Positions 2,948-64,000 of a stretch of DNA of 64,000 bases are shown here, one piece after another. The position numbers and the translations under genes were made by a program. The notes beneath the pieces are model-generated. The model did not search any database. It saw only the letters and a list, made by a program, of their open reading frames with translations, and was not told the DNA's origin. Each line of letters starts with the position of its first letter. The stretch's first letter is position 1. Origin of the DNA: Capniomyces stellatus (Eukaryota; Kickxellomycota; Harpellomycetes; Harpellales; Legeriomycetaceae); contig LUVW01000002.1 in the NCBI GenBank assembly GCA_001661515.1, forward strand, positions 131,850-195,849, written 5' to 3'.

Positions 2948-3529
2948 CTAGCTGAATGGACTTTGTCTGACTGGCGAATACAATATAAACTCACAGTTGG
3001 GCTCGATGGGTTTGTCCAAAGCATCTCCACTCGACTTAATAAAAGAGAATCGCCTGTTACAGTCGTACTTTAAATTGCACATTTTGTACTGAATAAAGTA
3101 ATCCTCAAAAACCATATTCGCATTCTTAAAATTGGTGACAGAGTTTTCATATATTGGGTAGATGCAAATACGGTTTTCATCAGTCCTGTTGACGCGTTCT
3201 GTGTTTGCTGTCCAGACATTAGTGTATATACTTGTTACTCTATCGCTTCTACAGAGTTCCTTTATGTAATACTTTTTTCGAATATATATGGGCGTGTTGT
3301 TCTGGTCATTATAAGGTATTTTTACATAACCAATTATACTTCTGTCGGCATCATAGGGATTCAGACTGTTAATGCCTGTTTTAACAAAGAAATCGTCTTT
3401 ATAAAACTCACAGTTATTTTCATTCAAGGCTGGCTGCGCAGACTCTTCTGGCTTTGGGTATCCATAGCAGCTCTGTAAGTAAGCAGCGGCAAAAATCACA
3501 ACGCAAATTTCCAATATCCTAATACTCAT
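2948..3529 (-). CDS. small secreted four-cysteine family protein, copy A (intact)
   Basis: Single-exon gene of 193 aa. Residues 1 to about 23 form a signal peptide (hydrophobic VVIFAAAYL core ending near CYG), so the product is probably secreted. It belongs to a family found only at the two edges of this window: shared blocks are LNPYDAD...GYVKIPY (about 56-73), a CIYPI block around Cys122, YFIQYKMC at Cys151, and a C-terminal KP..PNC...LYSPVR block around Cys179. The four shared cysteines (93, 122, 151, 179) are spaced 29, 29 and 28, suggesting two disulfides. Extra cysteines occur at 40 and 157. Possible N-glycosylation sites are N77 and N114. It ends in TAG. I do not recognise the family; effector, adhesin or inhibitor roles are all possible, none shown. 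Confidence 0.8.
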   Translation of the reverse strand: MSIRILEICVVIFAAAYLQSCYGYPKPEESAQPALNENNCEFYKDDFFVKTGINSLNPYDADRSIIGYVKIPYNDQNNTPIYIRKKYYIKELCRSDRVTSIYTNVWTANTERVNRTDENRICIYPIYENSVTNFKNANMVFEDYFIQYKMCNLKYDCNRRFSFIKSSGDALDKPIEPNCEFILYSPVRQSPFS

Positions 3530-4384
3530 GGTGTCCTTCAGTTAGTTAGTCTCCAAGTTGGTCTCCAAGTTGATTGATTTTTTTTTAAATTCTCGTAAAC
3601 AGAATAATATTTTTAGCTGGTTATATATATATTTTTAGTAAAATACTATAAACGAGTATGAAATACAGATACTGAGGTATCCTGAGGGCTAACCAACTGC
3701 TTTAAATACTCATTCACACCCCTTCTTTGTAAATATCACGCCAGCATTTGTTTAGCAAACACTCTGCGCTTTTCCAACCAATTGTCCCAAGGTGTGTATA
3801 GATGTCACCAGCATATACACCAAGTTTATTATACACTAAATGTTTGTGCTAAATCAAGATCGTGCAACAAGTGTTACTTTCATTAAGAATATCCGGTATT
3901 CTTTTTAACAGACAGTGATTTCACTAAACAGCCATATAAACAGAATCACAATCGTAGTTTTATTCTAGGATCAAAACATCAGCACCTTTTTTTTTCACTA
4001 AACCCTTTTTTTCACTAAACCCTTCTTTGTGCACTAAACCTGAACCAAAAGACCCTTTATTTACCAAATCAATTTGTTCCACCTTCTTTATGCCCTAATT
4101 ATAATCCAATTTTATATTAAAACGATAGCCAATATGGCAAGAGAAGGTGAAGCTGTTGGTATTTTAAAATAATGATTAATTATACCTCTGAACTGGGTTG
4201 TATATCGATGTGCAACTGGGCTTGCTTATCCAAAACTTTATTTATTTATCGCTCAGCAAGTTTTATTTTGATAGCCCCGAGTATTGCGTGTCATCCCACC
4301 ACATTTACAATTAGGCTTGGTTAATACTACTAGGCCTGAAAGAAGAAAAAGGACGTCAACTGGCCATGTAAGTCGACAAAATGG
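3530..4384. other. intergenic, upstream of copy A
   Basis: AT-rich upstream region of copy A (which reads leftward). It contains TATA-rich stretches near 3621-3635 that could serve as its promoter. No additional gene seen. Confidence 0.4.
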
Positions 4385-4520
4385 ATTGGTTGCGTACAAA
4401 GCAACCACACAATTTTCATCAACCAACTTATTGGTGTTGCCAAATGGCGAGTTTCTAAAAACGTTGGTCAACTCAATACTTGTTATTCTTGATACATATT
4501 TTGGCCTCGTTGAAATCTAA
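4385..4520 (-). pseudogene. decayed C-terminal relic of the secreted four-cysteine family
   Basis: Reading leftward, one frame gives AKICIKNNKY, then a stop, then VDQRF and a second stop. This lines up with the third-cysteine block TKMCIRDNKYVIEHSF of copy C. In a second frame it continues NKLVDENCVVALYA, which lines up with the last-cysteine block NKPDEEDCACVLFA. Two in-frame stops and at least one frameshift therefore separate conserved blocks that remain in the right order and spacing. Nothing resembling the N-terminal half was found upstream of about 4520. It is interpreted as an old, truncated copy. The match rests on about 30 residues, so confidence is moderate. Confidence 0.55.
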
Positions 4521-5036
4521 TTCTACTCGGTGCGCTCCAGTAGTATTATTTTTTTTATAAATAGTTGCCCTTATCGCTCTAAACAAATAGCAAAAGACTA
4601 AGAATCAGACTGAGATGGATACTAGCGATTTATTACCAAATATAAACCACACTCTCAATTCAAACAAAAAAAAGCTGTTCCTCCGCTTGCATCGCTGAGC
4701 AGCCTGAACAAGATGGAGTATTTGTAAACACAAACCGGTCATAACACTATACAAATAATCCGGTTTATCTGCTTCCAAAATATAGCAACAGCTGTAGCAT
4801 TGGTTTGATATTGAAAAGAGGAAGAAGTTTTGCATTTTTTTTTTATGATTATAAGCAACTTGGTATTTTTAATAATAACTACTAATACCGTTTCAAAAAG
4901 ATGATATCGCGAAAACACTTTTACCTGCCTGTCCAAGACATCTCTACTTGCCCAGACCCTGCCAAAACAACTTTCCAATAGCGCTATATTTGGCGAATCG
5001 AGACGTTACAAGCTGTATACTTTGTACATAACGATA
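4521..5036. other. intergenic, no gene seen
   Basis: Between the relic and copy B. Minus-strand open frames (4605-4835, 4739-4978) show no family motif and no codon structure that looks coding. Confidence 0.4.
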
Positions 5037-5677
5037 CTAAATCTTGAAACGTTTGTGTAAATTTAATACGAGCAAGTTTAGGCGCCCAAATGGAAATGAT
5101 ATTCCAAAAAAATAATTTAAACGTGCTTGAGCAATGGGGCTTATTGGCGAATATAATACGTAAGCACAGTTCCACTTGTGTGATTTGTTAATGTCACGTC
5201 TACTTAACAAAACTATGACTGACTCTGTATTTTCTAGATTCAATACATAGCCCGGCCTGAATAAAATAGGCTTCCTGTTTCAAATCATTTGGTTCTGGTG
5301 CGTAGGAGGTACTTGGCAATTTGAATAGAAAGTAGCAATTGTTGTCACCAAATGTCAGCGGCTTCAGGGAGTCGTGCACCCTTCGTCCTTCCACTGCTTT
5401 TGCATGCTTATTTGAAGCGAGATTCGACATAACTATCTTTATTGGAGTCAGCCTCATTTGTAAATGGTATTTTTCTATACCCTTGTATTTGAGAATCCTT
5501 AGAATATGGGTTCAGGCACTTGATCGCTTTGGATAGCGATGTGCAACTATAGTATATCATAAAGTCCTCTGAAACCTTCTTTGGTCTTTCCAACTCGTAG
5601 ATATCATCTGTAGCCAAGGTCCCAAAGACCAATAAATAGAGAAAAGTGAATATAAGACGAAATTATATTAACAACAT
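5037..5677 (-). pseudogene. secreted four-cysteine family, copy B (two stops, two frameshifts)
   Basis: The family pattern can be followed end to end but not in one frame. An ATG at 5677-5675 is followed at codon 5 by TAA (5665-5663). The frame then continues through a hydrophobic FTFLYLLVFG segment, the CLNPYSKD block and GYRKIPF, up to a second TAA at 5410-5408. Past that stop the same frame reads ACKSSG, the first conserved cysteine. A shift near 5350 leads to NNCYFLF, YFIQAGLC and HSFVK. A second shift near 5203 leads to WNCAYVLYSPIS, the last block. So all four cysteines are still visible across three frames, which argues for recent inactivation. By block similarity (CKSSG versus CKSNG) it is closest to copy E at the other end of the window. 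Sequencing error could explain one lesion but hardly four. Confidence 0.8.
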
Positions 5678-6310
5678 AACCGATATGTTAATACTGTCTA
5701 TGACGAGCAAAAGTCAATGTATTTAAAAAATACTAGTAATATTTTGTTGCAAGGTTAAATAATACCTTGAGCCTTTGCTTTGGTAAACTTTAGACGCGGG
5801 TTGTGATGGTTATTTAACATCAATATAGTCGTTATATTTGACTATTTTAGCTAGCGATGGTAACATTTATCTCGAGTTAGTTTATCGATTGTAAAGTAAT
5901 AATCCAGCAATTTCACTGAACCAAGTTTAGTAGTAGTACGTTGCGAGTATGTATAAACTGTGGGGCTCATTCTGTTTGTATCCAAATTGCCTCACACAAT
6001 TCTTTAAAACAATCCACCTATCTTGATTTGCCCACATAATGGATTACTCAAAGGTCATAAATAAACCACAAATATCTTATAACCAAAATGTGCCAAATTG
6101 GGAGAATCCCAAGCACGCCAATTTGTCAACAAAAAATGCAAAATCAGCCAAAAAAATGTTATAAAAAGATTTGGGTTTAGATTTGTATTTAAAAGTAACT
6201 ACGCGTTGAGTTTATAACCACATCAGGAGCAGTGCAACTATGAAAAAAAAGCTGGAAATAAAACTACATAGCTAAAAAGTCATACAAAATACTGGTCGAC
6301 AAGTGTTGTA
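5678..6310. other. intergenic, no gene seen
   Basis: AT-rich spacer between copies B and C; it holds the likely upstream region of copy B. No conserved motif recognised. Confidence 0.4.
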
Positions 6311-6901
6311 TCAATACGTGCTTTCGTTGGCTCGAATTGGTGCAAATAGGACACAAGCACAGTCTTCCTCATCAGGCTTGTTAATGGCAGACTTTTTTGT
6401 GTCCACAAAGCTATGTTCTATCACGTACTTGTTGTCTCTGATGCACATCTTTGTCATTATAAAGTATTTTTCCATATTTATTGATTGAGCAGAGTAATGA
6501 TAATGGCTGTGTGAGTTTTTTATCGGATATACACAGTTCGTGTCCTCCTGATACATTTGGACTATTTCCTCTTCAGTTCTGGGATACGCCATGTTGAGGA
6601 CACGCCTATTTCCATCAAAATAACATATTTTTTTTACATACATTTCGGTATAATCGCTGGTTCTCACTTTGGTCTCGTCTGCAAATGGTACTTTTCTGTA
6701 TCCTAGTATCACCAGATCTTTCTGGTATGGCTCTAGTGTCGCTATTGCCGCAGACAACATGGTCATGCTGTTATAAAGTCGATAACCAGAAGTAATTTTT
6801 TTGAGTTTAGCCAACTCTAATACCTCATCAAGCCCAAACGATGTATGGATAAAAAGTGATGCCAATAGGCAGTAGCGTCTGACGATCTTTTCAAACTGCA
6901 T
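6311..6901 (-). CDS. small secreted four-cysteine family protein, copy C (intact)
   Basis: Single exon, 196 aa, starting at a true ATG (6901). A signal peptide is plausible at residues 1-23 (RRYCLLASLFIHTSFG). Conserved blocks in order: LYNSMTMLSAAI (42-53), LEPYQKD..ILGYRKVPF (56-73), KKICYFDGN at Cys93, NCVYPI at Cys123, YFIMTKMC at Cys153, and INKPDEEDCACVLFAPIR at Cys181. Spacing of the four invariant cysteines is 30, 30 and 28; an extra cysteine lies at 183. No membrane segment apart from the signal. The 3' part is nearly the same at DNA level as copy F at the right edge of the window (63837-64000). Function unknown; extracellular location is inferred from the signal peptide only. Confidence 0.82.
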   Translation of the reverse strand: MQFEKIVRRYCLLASLFIHTSFGLDEVLELAKLKKITSGYRLYNSMTMLSAAIATLEPYQKDLVILGYRKVPFADETKVRTSDYTEMYVKKICYFDGNRRVLNMAYPRTEEEIVQMYQEDTNCVYPIKNSHSHYHYSAQSINMEKYFIMTKMCIRDNKYVIEHSFVDTKKSAINKPDEEDCACVLFAPIRANESTY

Positions 6902-49928: not shown

Positions 49929-50663
49929 ATGAGATCGCTTGCGCTATTTTTGACAACATTCTTGGTTTACAAATGCAATGCAGACTCCAAGTTGGCATAC
50001 CCAGCACCAAGAGGAAACGTAGAGTGGTGGGGGACATGTTCAGCTGGTAGCGGGTGTAAGGGGCCATGCGACAACCCAATGTCAAAGTCTAGACTAAACC
50101 CGCTGACTGTTCAGAGAGGCGAAGTAATCCCCGTGAGATGGGGATATGCTAGCACTAGAGGTGGGTTTGTGCGGCTGTCAATCGTGCCACTGGAGAAATC
50201 AGATGATTGGGCATCGTTCAACAGCGCGGCAATCAAGTATACGTGCTATGAAAACATTAGGAAATACTCTGGACCAAATGCTGGAAACTCGGCAAGTAGC
50301 TGGAGCACCGAGTTGAGAATTCCAAACAACTTGAAGGATGGTGCCGTCACTTTGCAATGGGTATGGTTTGGCGGTGGAAATTATTATGGAAATCCAGACG
50401 CTTCCTTTGGCGAACACTACGGGTGCAGCGACTTTACCATTAAAGGAGGCCCATACGTTGAAACTGCATCACCCGCAATCTTTGAGGGCGGGGACAGACT
50501 TTACCCTAACGAAGATGTTTGTGAGTACCATGGAAGCAACATGGTTGGTGTATGCACCTTTGGAAACAGAACACCTAGTCCTAAACCAGGAGATTTGCTT
50601 TCAAACTCGCTTGAACCCTGTGACATTGGAGCTGGAAAGAAAGGAAGACCAGCCCCGTTTTAA
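49929..50663 (+). CDS. secreted LPMO-like / chitin-binding-type protein
   Basis: Single exon, 244 aa. Signal peptide 1-18 (RSLALFLTTFLVYKCNA). The mature part begins DSKLAYPAPRGNVEWWGTCS, then GCKGPCDNP, RGEVIPVRWGYASTRGGFVRLSIVPL, IKYTCYEN, PNNLKDGAVTLQWVWFGGGNYYG and HYGCSDFTIKGG. This is the beta-sandwich pattern of lytic polysaccharide monooxygenase-like proteins of zygomycete-type fungi. The expected mature N-terminal histidine of the copper brace is missing: no His lies between residues 1 and 162, so it is probably not a copper oxidase and may only bind polysaccharide. A C-terminal Cys pair region (198-231) and a basic tail (KKGRPAPF) follow. Role in wall or chitin remodelling is inference. 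Confidence 0.75.
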   Translation: MRSLALFLTTFLVYKCNADSKLAYPAPRGNVEWWGTCSAGSGCKGPCDNPMSKSRLNPLTVQRGEVIPVRWGYASTRGGFVRLSIVPLEKSDDWASFNSAAIKYTCYENIRKYSGPNAGNSASSWSTELRIPNNLKDGAVTLQWVWFGGGNYYGNPDASFGEHYGCSDFTIKGGPYVETASPAIFEGGDRLYPNEDVCEYHGSNMVGVCTFGNRTPSPKPGDLLSNSLEPCDIGAGKKGRPAPF

Positions 50664-57010: not shown

Positions 57011-60000
57011 TCAAATTTCACCCTCCTCCTTTTCCAAATCGCCACTACCACCACTCTTTTCCTCCAATACGCTGTTTATTGTTGCAGTATTACTCTGGCC
57101 CTCGTCATTTCCATGTTCTTCTTTGATGTTTTCGCCTTCACTTACTTTTCCTCCAACCAGACCAGCATTGTCGGTTGGTTGAGTGTTTGTTCCATCGTCA
57201 TTACGGCCACCCAAATTTGTCTCTGAAGCATCCGCGTCTGTCTCCTTATCCTTTTCAGCAGCACCAGCAGCATCAGCAGCATTAACAGCATCGCCAATTT
57301 TACCCTCCGTGCCGCTTACAGGCTTGTCAGCACTTTTCTCGGTCTCTTCACCCACCTCTCCCTCCTCAATTGCATCATTGCTCAATGAAACACTGCTGCC
57401 CTCATTGCCCAAAGTCTCTTCAGCTGCCACATTTCCGACTTGGTCCAACTCTTCTTTCTCACTGGTCTCTTCAAGTCTATCACCCTCTTTTTCTTCCCCA
57501 TCCTCCTTCCCCTTGCTATCTTGTGCGTTATCCACAGCTTGAACTATTTCCTTCAGCTCTGGATCCTTACCACCACCAATATCAGCAACCACGTTTGCTG
57601 TCCGACCTGCTGCATCCACACCTTCTGAACTTGCAGCAGACTCGACTTTTACAGACTCGACTTTTACAGACCCGACTTTTACAGACTCGACTTTTACAGA
57701 CTCGACTTTTACAGACTCGACTTTTACAGACTCAACTTTTTCTGACTCTTCTTGCTGCTTGGGTTCCTCTTGCTGCTTAGGCTCGGCCTCTGTTGCTTTG
57801 GACTCTGCATCGCTCATCAACACGTTTTCACCAGCAACCTCAGCTTCAACATCCATGTTTGTTTCACCACTTACTTTGCCCTCCTCAACAGCACTTTCCT
57901 CTACAACCATCTCTGGCTTCTCAACTACACTCGGCTGGTCACCTAAACCTACCTTGATTTCTTCATCTTTCAAATCGTTGGCATCTTTTTGCTCATCGGC
58001 TATATCCACATCCATTCCGCTTGTATCCACTACACCCTCCATCGACTCCGACACGTCGCCCTTCGTATCCCCCTTTACCTCTGACTCTGAACCCTGTCCG
58101 CTTGACTCTTTATCCAACTTGACTCCATCCTTCCTTGTTTTTTCCAATAGACTCTCTTGTTCAAAATCTACCTTCTTTGCTACAGAAGGCAAGTTGCTCG
58201 CTGGAAGACCGCTATCTGGCTCAGAAATACCACTATTTTCCCCCTTCAAATCAGTCTTGCTGCTTTCTAAACTCACTGACTGAGCCTCAATTTTATTGGC
58301 CCTAAGTGGACTCCTACTTTCAAGCCTGATCCTCTTTACTCTGGGACTAGGACTAACCATCAGCTTTACGCTTTTACTTTCCTCCCCAACAACCTTTTCC
58401 TTCTCAACCACATGTGTCTCTGCCACTATCTTGTCAACTTCAACTTTTTTATTCTCGGTTTCTTTATTTATTACCTTATCTTCAATCTTATCTTCAATCT
58501 TATCTTCAATCTTATCTTCAATCTTATCTTCAATCTTCTCTTCAATCTTATCTTCAATCTTCTCTTCAATCTTATCTTCAATCTTCTCTTCAATCCTCTC
58601 TTCAATATCCTCATTTACAATATCTTCATTTACAATTTCCTTATTTACAATGTCGCTGCCCTCAACTTTGCCTTTTTCTTTTGTATCTTCCTTTTGTGCT
58701 GCCGCTGTCTCCAGCATTCCCTTGCCAATAACTTTACCGGGGCTAACTCCAATCGGCTCAACAGCCACTCCGGGCAAAACAACCGCTCTTCCTGTACCAT
58801 CAACCCCTATAGTATTCGGCGTGCCTCTGCTGGCTGTGTTTTTGTTATACACAGACTTTGGAGACTCGTAACTCAGGTCGTTGACAACCCTTGACCCCTT
58901 CTTCTCAATCTGCTCTGTTGTCCCCATTGCATCACCATCGTACATCTCATATGATGGAACCACGTGGCTATCCATCATCCTCATAGTCATCCGAACATCC
59001 TTGTTCTTTTCCTCATCTGCCTCTTCATCCCTTTCATGTTCTCTGTCTGACTCCAAAATTGTATCCGGCGGAACCGACTGCATTTGAATACTTGGCGCAT
59101 ACCTCGTCCTCTCCAAGTTCTTGATTACCTGAGTTCTATTGCACACGTAATACCCACAATTAAAACCAGAATTCCAACACCCACCTTTATACATATACAA
59201 ATATTTAATTATTAGCTCATTATCTTCTTACTTTATCCTTTCAAGGTACTTTGCGCTATTCATATTCTCCATATTGCGCGATGGCACGTTTAGCGAGTAA
59301 TCAGGTCCGTAGTAGTCCATGTAGTCGTTCATTGGCAGTTGCTTCTCCATATCCATCCCCACCAAAACTCCCGTTTCATACGCCCATGCTCTCGCCACAT
59401 TTCTAATCGCATACCCTCCTCCTCCAAGAACCAAAGTCGGCAACCCAAACTTTTTTACAAACGAAACACACTTTGCGTGACCCTCCATTGACAAGTTAAA
59501 GCATCCAATCTTATCCCCTGACAACGAATCTGCTCCACACTGCAAGACTATCGCACTTGGCTGGTACCACTCAATTATAGACTGCACAACTGGCTCATAT
59601 ATGCTTTGGTAGCTCTCGTCGTTGATCCCATCTTTCAGTGGAACGTTAACGCTATAGTACTTGCCTTTGCTCTCCCCAATATCCCGCAAATCTCCTGTTC
59701 CTGGAAAAAACTCTCCGTACTTGTGGAATGAACACGTCATTACCCGGTCCGTTGTATAAAACGCCTCCTCAACCCCATCCCCATGATGCACATCAATATC
59801 AATATACAGCACTCTTGAATGGTGGCGAAGCAACTCCAATATTGCTAGAACTATGTCGTTGATATAGCAAAACCCACTAGCCTCGCACTTCTTTGCATGG
59901 TGAAGTCCACCACTCCAATTAATACATATATCCGACAAGTTTCTATTCAATCTAGCTGCTCCCTCCATCGAGCTCCCTGCTGTCAACGAGAAAAAATCAA

Positions 60001-60637
60001 ACATTCCATCGAATACTGGACAATCGTCCTCAACATTATCTGCAAAACCAGCAAATTTCATTACAATATGTTACATTACTTTTCAGACTCAAATTACTCT
60101 TTATTTATTTGCTTTTTCAAGATTCAAATCAAGTTGGATTAAATTGAATTTAATCAAACTGTGCTAAATCAAACCCTCAAAAGTACTTACATTTTGCAAG
60201 CTCTTTTTGGAACCGCCATGCATTGTCAGGCATTACTTTGTACAAGAAATCCACGTAATCATCCGAATGGAACTGTGTCATTTCCTGCTTTGTGGCTGGC
60301 GCTGCTCGATAAATCGACATTTTCTTATACAACCCATAGCTCATCACCAAACTATGCGTCATTCGAATCCGATGTGGCTTCATTGGGTGTCCTGGCCCAT
60401 AATGGAAATTTCCTACATCAGCTATTTGAATTACACATTTTCACACACAACCAACAAAATTACGCGTTTATTTTTGTTTCTCTTGCTTATTTCGTCTCTA
60501 AATCAAAGCCCTTGTAAACAATTAAACGCCCTTATATCCATCGCTTGCTCCAACATTATGTTTACAATAATCAACACGTAACTTAAATCCTGTGACTTAC
60601 GATCGTAAAAGTATGCTACTGTCCTATTGCTAGACAT
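57011..60637 (-). CDS. class I (Rpd3-type) histone deacetylase with a long acidic tail
   Basis: Four exons: 60637-60601, 60412-60191, 60039-59232 and 59135-57011, giving 1063 aa. Removes acetyl groups from histone lysines in corepressor complexes (family knowledge). Catalytic part (1 to about 380): [76 protein letters not shown] with the two active His, [16 protein letters not shown] with zinc-binding Asp and His, [13 protein letters not shown] with the second Asp, and [18 protein letters not shown] with the active Tyr nearby. [30 protein letters not shown] matches the usual Rpd3 end. Normal Rpd3/HDAC1 proteins stop within 50-100 residues of this point. Here the frame goes on for about 640 residues of Glu/Lys/Val/Ser-rich repeats, ending [10 protein letters not shown]. 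The splice from exon 3 to 4 is supported by the conserved sequence across it. Confidence 0.93.
57639..57743 (-). repeat. 15-bp minisatellite in the HDAC tail (VKVES)n
   Basis: About seven copies of a 15-base unit (plus-strand GACTCGACTTTTACA) coding VKVES, with one VKVGS variant. Nearly perfect DNA copies suggest recent expansion. Confidence 0.9.
58475..58607 (-). repeat. 12-bp minisatellite in the HDAC tail (IEDK/IEEK)n
   Basis: About eleven copies of a 12-base unit (plus-strand CTTATCTTCAAT, variant CTTCTCTTCAAT) coding alternating IEDK and IEEK. The pattern would form a charged helix. Confidence 0.9.
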
Positions 60638-61281: not shown

Positions 61282-61836
61282 CTAGTCAATCTTGTAAATA
61301 GGTGAGTTCAAACTATAACTACAGTTATTGCTTTTGGGCCTCTCAATCACTGAACTGTTCCCTGGGTTCACAAATTTGGAATTGTAGGCGCTGTATCTAC
61401 CATTGCTGCAGTACTCAACTACAACATAATGGCCCTCATTTGCTACCACCGTTGAGCTGTAATAGCTTTTCTTTTCTCCCCTCAAAAACGGCACAATGCA
61501 ATTGTTTTGCCTCCCCAAACTGTACACATTCTCCAATCCCCTCTTTGCAACAAGACTCCCAACCAGTAAATTTCCGTCTTTTATACACACCTTCTTAAGC
61601 ACAATATCTTCTGCTATACTGTAATTTCCAGCGCCATCGCCTGAGAATGGAATCTGTATATATCCCACTATATCCTTATTCTTTTTGTATGCCTGCATTG
61701 CATCTATCGACTTTACCAATACCTTCACATCACTGGCCCCGCCAAGTTCTTTATAGCCTGGTCTTGGGATTATTGATGCGCTTGCTTTCGAAAACCCAAA
61801 CACCAGGGAAAACGCTAAAATAAACTCGTGCCTCAT
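61282..61836 (-). CDS. small secreted four-cysteine family protein, copy D (intact, divergent)
   Basis: Single exon, 184 aa, ATG at 61836. Signal peptide 1-20 (EFILAFSLVFGFSKASA). Lower identity to copies A and C, but the same order of blocks: KDIVGYIQIPFSGD (54-67), LKKVCIKDGN at Cys84, NNCIVPF at Cys113, GHYVVVEYCSNGRY at Cys143, and ERPKSNNCSYSLNSPI at Cys172. Spacing of the four cysteines is 29, 30 and 29, within one residue of the other intact copies, and no further cysteine is present, so this copy best defines the core. Possible N-glycosylation at N71, N160 and N171. Nothing in the sequence tells the function. Confidence 0.78.
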   Translation of the reverse strand: MRHEFILAFSLVFGFSKASASIIPRPGYKELGGASDVKVLVKSIDAMQAYKKNKDIVGYIQIPFSGDGAGNYSIAEDIVLKKVCIKDGNLLVGSLVAKRGLENVYSLGRQNNCIVPFLRGEKKSYYSSTVVANEGHYVVVEYCSNGRYSAYNSKFVNPGNSSVIERPKSNNCSYSLNSPIYKID

Positions 61837-62619: not shown

Positions 62620-63177
62620 TCATCCACTTGCTTTATCGCTAGTATCTCTAACCGGGGCATACAGTAAAAACGCACAATTGTTTTCAGCAGGCTTGTTTAT
62701 GACACGTTCCTTTATGTTTACAAAGCTTTGGTCAATTATGTATTGGTGGTCAACAATTCAAAACCTAACCATTATAAAACATCTTTCAAGTTGTGCGAAT
62801 TCTGCTGTGTGGAAAAAGGATCTCTGCACGTCTTGAAGAGAGAAGTGACAACTTTCAGAATGAAGTGGTTCAAGTTTTGCCGAGTTTATTATTATCTCCT
62901 TGCCATTACTCTTACAGACCTTTTTGTAAAATGCCTCGCTGTAACTACTAGCGTCCAATTCTGTCTCGTCAGCAAATGTTATCTTTATGTAACCCAATAT
63001 TTTCGGATCTGCTGTGTATGGCTCGAGTATATGTATTGCTCTAGATAGAAGTGACAAACTGTTGTATATATGGTACCCTAAAGCTAATTTTTTTGACTCC
63101 AAAAGCTGGTAGATTTCATCCGTCACAAGTGAGTTACATTTAAAAAGAAAAGCAGCAACACGTGAGAAATCTAACAA
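62620..63177 (-). pseudogene. secreted four-cysteine family, copy E (TGA at invariant cysteine, no ATG)
   Basis: One continuous frame from 63177 to the TGA at 62622-62620 carries the whole family pattern: DEIYQLLESKKLALGYHIYNSLSLLSRAI, LEPYTADPKILGYIKITFADE, KKVCKSNGK, SESCHFSL, ERCFIM, then a TGA at 62760-62758. After that stop the same frame continues IVDHQYIIDQSFVN, INKPAENNCAFLLYAPVR. The TGA stands exactly where copies A, B, C, D and F have the third conserved cysteine, so a single TGT/TGC to TGA change explains it. The start is also lost: no in-frame ATG lies between an upstream TAA and the first family block. TGA is used as a normal stop by several genes here, so recoding is unlikely. 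Confidence 0.8.
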
Positions 63178-63836: not shown

Positions 63837-64000
63837 CTAAGTTGAGACAGCATCGTCAGATCGGATTGGAGCGGATAATGAAAATGCACAGTCTTCCTCG
63901 ACAGGCTTGTTAATGACAGATTTTTTTGTGTCTACAAAGCTATGTTCTACTACGTAATTATTGTCTCTGATGCACATCTTTGTCATTATAAAATATTTTT
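63837..64000 (-). CDS. small secreted four-cysteine family protein, copy F (C-terminal part; cut by window end)
   Basis: The frame entering at 64000 reads YFIMTKMCIRDNNYVVEHSFV, then DTKKSVINKPVEEDCAFSLSAPIR and ends VST with TAG at 63839-63837. It carries the third and fourth family cysteines. The DNA is close to copy C (compare 6355-6478): the TTTTTTGTGTC.ACAAAGCTATGTTCTA core and the TTGTCTCTGATGCACATCTTTGTCATTATAAA core are shared with few differences. The rest of the gene lies beyond the window, so intactness is unknown. Confidence 0.8.
   Translation of the reverse strand, partial: KYFIMTKMCIRDNNYVVEHSFVDTKKSVINKPVEEDCAFSLSAPIRSDDAVST

Follow-up and report, generated by a model that had tools for sequence, protein, structure and literature searches.

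What are the small four-cysteine proteins that are encoded at both edges of one stretch of the Capniomyces stellatus genome, and what could they do for a fungus living in an insect gut? The stretch, here called the window, comprises 64,000 nucleotides (positions 131850–195849 of contig C12, LUVW01000002.1; G+C content 38.8%) of an assembly of 24,510,316 bases in 59 contigs. The Harpellales live as obligate commensals in insect guts; C. stellatus, one of them, inhabits the stonefly hindgut as a symbiont and is reported to be strictly tied to stoneflies (PMC4974312; PMC5954228). The reading favoured here, with a probability of roughly 0.55, is that of an old, lineage-restricted family of small secreted proteins, each a disulphide-stabilised extracellular binding scaffold with variable loops, which would be active in the host gut.

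Copies in the window and across the genome

A sequence-only reading of the window had described copies A to F. They are given below as delimited by open reading frames (ORFs) and by a family hidden Markov model (HMM) built from 25 members, A, C, D and F included.

2948–3529, minus strand: copy C (L020), intact ORF of 193 aa with an extra cysteine pair
5139–5653, minus strand: copy B, broken, in three HMM pieces (5429–5653, 5203–5346 and 5139–5207)
6311–6901, minus strand: copy A (L001), intact ORF of 196 aa
6902–7702, minus strand: 5' flank of A (about 800 bp), sharing 95.5% identity with that of F
61282–61836, minus strand: copy D (L026), intact ORF of 184 aa, with the lowest leave-one-out score among 24 members
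62641–63177, minus strand: copy E (L003), broken by one in-frame stop
63837–64000, minus strand: copy F (L002), 3' part, cut by the window edge

That A, C and D are intact and B and E broken is borne out by the ORFs, by a search with A and by the family HMM. Query A alone matches F (E 2.2e-89), E (7.5e-36), C (1.5e-16), D (2.3e-12) and two pieces of B (1.2e-12 and 1.1e-4); the HMM recovers the same copies plus the three pieces of B, and when applied to 10 mononucleotide-shuffled versions of the window it gave no match at E <= 0.01. The lengths proposed for the intact copies (184–196 aa) hold, and so does the spacing of their four cysteines, with steps of 30/30/28 in A, 29/29/28 in C and 29/30/29 in D. 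Copy F, described as partial, is indeed cut in the window, but the assembly carries it whole as an intact ORF of 197 aa (C12:195686–196279, equivalent to window 63837–64430). A relic placed at 4385–4520 was rejected, the sole HMM signal nearby being at 4476–4538 with E 0.38.

The genome was searched with the union of five member queries (A, L024, L009, L026 and L013), and the resulting counts are lower bounds. There are 25 intact, uninterrupted ORFs on 12 contigs, intact meaning ATG to stop without an internal stop (verified in 25 of 25): eight on C12, four on C10, three on C24, two on C2, and one each on C57, C23, C15, C46, C43, C36, C8 and C7. They range from 182 to 211 aa, lengths that depend on the start codon picked by the author where more than one was available. 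Eight copies are clearly broken or truncated (B, E, C46:39.8k, C43:20.6k, C45:239.5k, C10:264.1k and one each on C17 and C58), and there are also three weak short fragments, on C2, C3 and C24. The genome-wide count thus bears out an expanded family. The picture of minus-strand clusters around housekeeping genes is accurate for the window, where the intervening genes are largely of that kind, but elsewhere the family occupies both strands and is spread over 12 contigs. The truncated copies at C17:14099–14341 and C58:634759–635001 are both C-terminal halves with the same scores and the same frame length, of which the C17 sequence was the one read; this twin could be either a segmental duplication or assembly redundancy. 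A subtelomeric location was rejected: of the 30 loci counted, 10 are no more than 50 kb from a contig end, a zone that covers at most 24% of the genome. Three of 33 loci (C45, C17 and C58) were outside this count, and contig ends are not proven telomeres. Judged from the upstream DNA, TATA-like words are enriched before the copies, as with expressed genes; TATAAAT ranked first in a post hoc word scan: it is present in 12 of 24 upstream segments, L002 being excluded, whereas two downstream control sets had it in 1 and 3 of 24.

Conservation, predicted structure and the search for relatives

In the alignment of the 25 intact copies, mean pairwise identity is 27% (range 16 to 70%, 300 pairs) and the isoelectric point runs from 4.4 to 9.2. 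The residues invariant in 25 of 25 rows are the four cysteines plus I, G, Y, K, P and P; no His, Asp, Glu or Ser is among them, and acidic positions are common without being invariant (D in 21, E in 20 and E in 19 of 25). The four invariant cysteines probably form two disulphides. Two additional cysteines, one at residue 36–40 and the other exactly six residues past the third core cysteine, are present in L016, L020 (copy C) and L024. These three group on the family tree with support 88/59 (L016 with L024, 99/95), although only two of its 22 inner branches are starred and the bootstrap had not settled; the pattern hints at a third disulphide acquired once. In 20 of the 25 copies the N-terminus contains the most hydrophobic 10-residue stretch, and a hydrophobic N-terminus of this kind makes it likely that the members are secreted.

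AlphaFold2 (AF2) models were made of two members that are 30% identical, and they reached a predicted local distance difference test score (pLDDT) of 93.0 with a predicted template modelling score (pTM) of 0.88, and a pLDDT of 85.3 with a pTM of 0.79. The two predictions share their main helices and strands, which supports a common structure as far as these two members go. The architecture they suggest is one of short helices and a beta-sheet domain behind the N-terminal hydrophobic stretch. Variability follows this layout: column entropy is 2.69 in loops, 2.18 in helices and 2.01 in strands, and when the structure labels are shifted circularly, 2 of 173 shifts reach the difference between loops and strands. 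Fold searches with both models found no match to solved structures. Oddly, both models are confident and yet have next to no structural neighbours, middling scores included.

Sequence searches agree with the view that no named family is recognisable. In Pfam, 14 families were matched at E <= 1, each by only one of 24 members (best E 0.0036); in NCBIfam, two were matched at E <= 0.1, each by only one of 25; and among PDB sequences no match was better than E 0.2. A set of 5.77 billion proteins yielded 0 of 30 candidates at E <= 0.001 for query A and 0 of 1408 at E <= 0.01 for a 24-row profile. No clear match to a known domain, which would have spoken against an unrecognised family, came out of these searches. 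In a leave-one-out control at this database size, 24 of 24 members pass, the worst with E 5e-22. The search preselects candidates by common 5-residue words, at most 100 of them; all 24 members have at least two such words in common with others, and because D has only two, a relative as distant as D could have slipped through. The set includes proteins of Zancudomyces, Furculomyces and Smittium, the unannotated genes of those genomes lying outside it. The family proteins of this genome are themselves absent from it, as neither A nor the 24-row profile gave a self-match. The best reading of these results is that the family is lineage-restricted, having no detected relatives in the collections searched.

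Age of the copies and the A/F pair

Rapid multiplication and divergence had been supposed, but the synonymous sites do not support it. The proportion of synonymous differences (pS) exceeds 0.65 in 297 of 300 pairs, which are thus saturated; therefore, most duplications are old. The sole recent pair is A and F, with 70% identity, synonymous divergence (dS) 0.32, nonsynonymous divergence (dN) 0.17 and dN/dS 0.53; by 50-residue block the ratio is 0.69, 0.87 and 0.68, and 0.22 in the last. The comparison of dN/dS among copies consequently gives no sign of an arms race, and positive selection as a shown fact was rejected on the A/F ratio, the remaining pairs being nearly all saturated.

The surroundings of this pair have a history of their own. 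The 5' flanks of A and F are 95.5% identical over 802 bp, the last 300 bp being nearly identical, and dS in the first 24 codons is 0.065. Synonymous divergence then climbs along the gene, with 0.10, 0.24, 0.35 and 0.80 in successive 50-codon blocks, and the 3' flanks align poorly. Among the flanks of the 25 copies, no other pair matches, save for overlaps of neighbouring loci. The simplest reading suggested by this gradient is gene conversion of promoter and signal peptide between A and F, 57 kb apart, because synonymous divergence would not increase like this under selection on the protein alone. A strongly constrained promoter is a possible alternative for the identity of the flanks.

Possible roles in the gut and the genes around the copies

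Small secreted cysteine-stabilised candidate effectors form a generic class of proteins of less than 300 aa with at least four conserved cysteines and no known domain. The family has these features, with 182–211 aa, four cysteines invariant in 25 of 25 copies and no Pfam family in more than one of 24 members at E <= 1. The class is further marked by a cleavable signal peptide, of which the N-terminal hydrophobic stretch, the strongest one in 20 of 25 copies, is a putative sign, and by induction on host contact with action on the host, which for this family would be predictions. The RNase-like (RALPH) effectors of powdery mildews belong to large families, whose small secreted members contain disulphides and keep few residues invariant. 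The present proteins resemble them in family size, in being small, cysteine-bearing and predicted to be secreted, and in their few invariant residues, but no sequence link appears in Pfam or in the 5.77 billion proteins, and no solved ribonuclease is among the fold-search matches listed, a scope that leaves room for one. The nearest kind would be a secreted four-cysteine, sequence-divergent effector family such as Mig1, in which membership is not claimed. Mig1 proteins of Ustilago maydis are effectors with four strongly conserved cysteines, very low pairwise identity and some genomic neighbours, and the likeness lies in a multigene family of one fungus with four conserved cysteines, low identity and some adjacent members (PMC12503489). 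The four cysteines of a Mig1-like family would form two disulphides, which are putative here. No sequence relative of the family turned up in the 5.77 billion proteins, and its likely host is an insect, not maize.

The model proposed here is that the proteins would be released into the hindgut lumen or onto the interface between hypha and cuticle, where different copies would bind different host, microbial or gut ligands through their variable loops. The conserved core would be held by the two putative disulphides, and copies would arise and die slowly, their promoter and signal peptide now and then homogenised by gene conversion. On the aligned residues, a binding scaffold fits better than an enzyme, since no Asp, Glu, His or Ser is invariant and the core is conserved while the loops vary. 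Action at the host interface is suggested by the way of life of the organism. The pressure from host or environment that the sequence-only reading invoked may be at work, and it becomes more plausible because this is a Harpellales gut fungus whose proteins carry variable loops on a conserved core, and because some copies are broken. Several points weigh against the binding scaffold. In 4 of 25 copies the N-terminus is surpassed in hydrophobicity by an internal stretch, with a tie in 1, the signal peptides claimed earlier being probable rather than certain; dN/dS above 1 was not seen, neither in A/F nor in the other pairs, nearly all saturated; and the frequent acidic positions, with the invariant Lys and Tyr, leave an unusual enzyme possible. 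A bolder proposal, which is doubtful, is that a new protein fold has diversified in a single insect-gut fungal lineage, giving an enlarged repertoire of effectors or recognition proteins on which host specificity would rest, in a commensal instead of a pathogen.

It could also be argued that these are structural or adhesive secreted proteins of the fungus itself, from its holdfast glue, spore appendages or wall, whose only dealings with the host would be attachment. Disulphide-stabilised beta domains would suit such a role, as they suit extracellular matrix in general. This is unlikely: the ORFs of 182–211 aa contain little besides one domain, and 25 divergent copies spanning isoelectric points of 4.4 to 9.2 exceed the diversity that a structural role seems to need. 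Moreover, the adhesins named for these commensals are fasciclin-domain proteins (FISCoG.g2), which are enriched in Harpellales and are likewise extracellular (here by prediction), multi-copy and from the same order of gut fungi (PMC5954228). None of the 14 Pfam families that any of 24 members matched at E <= 1 is a fasciclin model, and the protein set, with its Harpellales proteins, gave no relative of the family. Less likely still is that the proteins are killer-toxin-like or antibacterial agents directed at competing gut microbes or strains. Competition systems usually feature secreted proteins of this sort, stabilised by cysteines and diversified, with part of the copies pseudogenised, but no Pfam family is matched by more than one of 24 members, nor any NCBIfam family by more than one of 25. 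Least probable is a role as secreted hindgut enzymes or enzyme inhibitors of a type not yet described, for which the invariant Lys and Tyr, the acidic positions kept in 19 to 21 of 25 copies and the gut habitat may be cited, and against which stand the lack of an invariant His, Asp, Glu or Ser and of any Pfam enzyme model matched by more than one of 24 members.

The genes tested between the two clusters are those for NOL10, an UNC45-like protein, a PfkB kinase, a WD40/Sec16-domain protein, a methyltransferase, an ABC ATPase, topoisomerase II and a histone deacetylase; three of the ORFs submitted from this region had no match in Pfam. At 49929–50660 the window encodes a probably secreted protein of 244 aa, without a Pfam match, which has two paralogues in the genome, one on C2 (51% identity) and one on C30 in two pieces (51 and 43%). 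At 57011–60061 an RPD3-type histone deacetylase ORF is followed by one stop and then, in the same frame, by a long acidic repetitive ORF, whose start seems to resemble a deacetylase C-terminus; the deacetylase may have a long repetitive tail after an intron. Among the matches listed for the window NOL10, the closest is that of Zancudomyces culisetae (65% identity), followed by other Kickxellomycotina. In a tree of 23 rows (the window and 22 chosen by the author from 120 listed proteins), it falls within a six-row Harpellales set with support 100/99, and its place beside Zancudomyces has only 81/67.

A comparison published in 2018 put the signal-peptide genes of C. stellatus at 792, where the Harpellales average is 733, and suggested from this higher number a more intensive interaction with the stonefly hosts; the part of it drawn on here names no such secreted four-cysteine gene family (PMC5954228). 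With 25 intact copies, a conserved core, variable loops and no counterpart among the proteins searched, those of other Harpellales included, the family is a concrete candidate for this closer interaction between C. stellatus and its host, and may be a toolkit for life in the insect gut. It is also well suited to structure determination, given two confident models for which no fold match emerged, and the family makes the basis of host specificity in a commensal testable.
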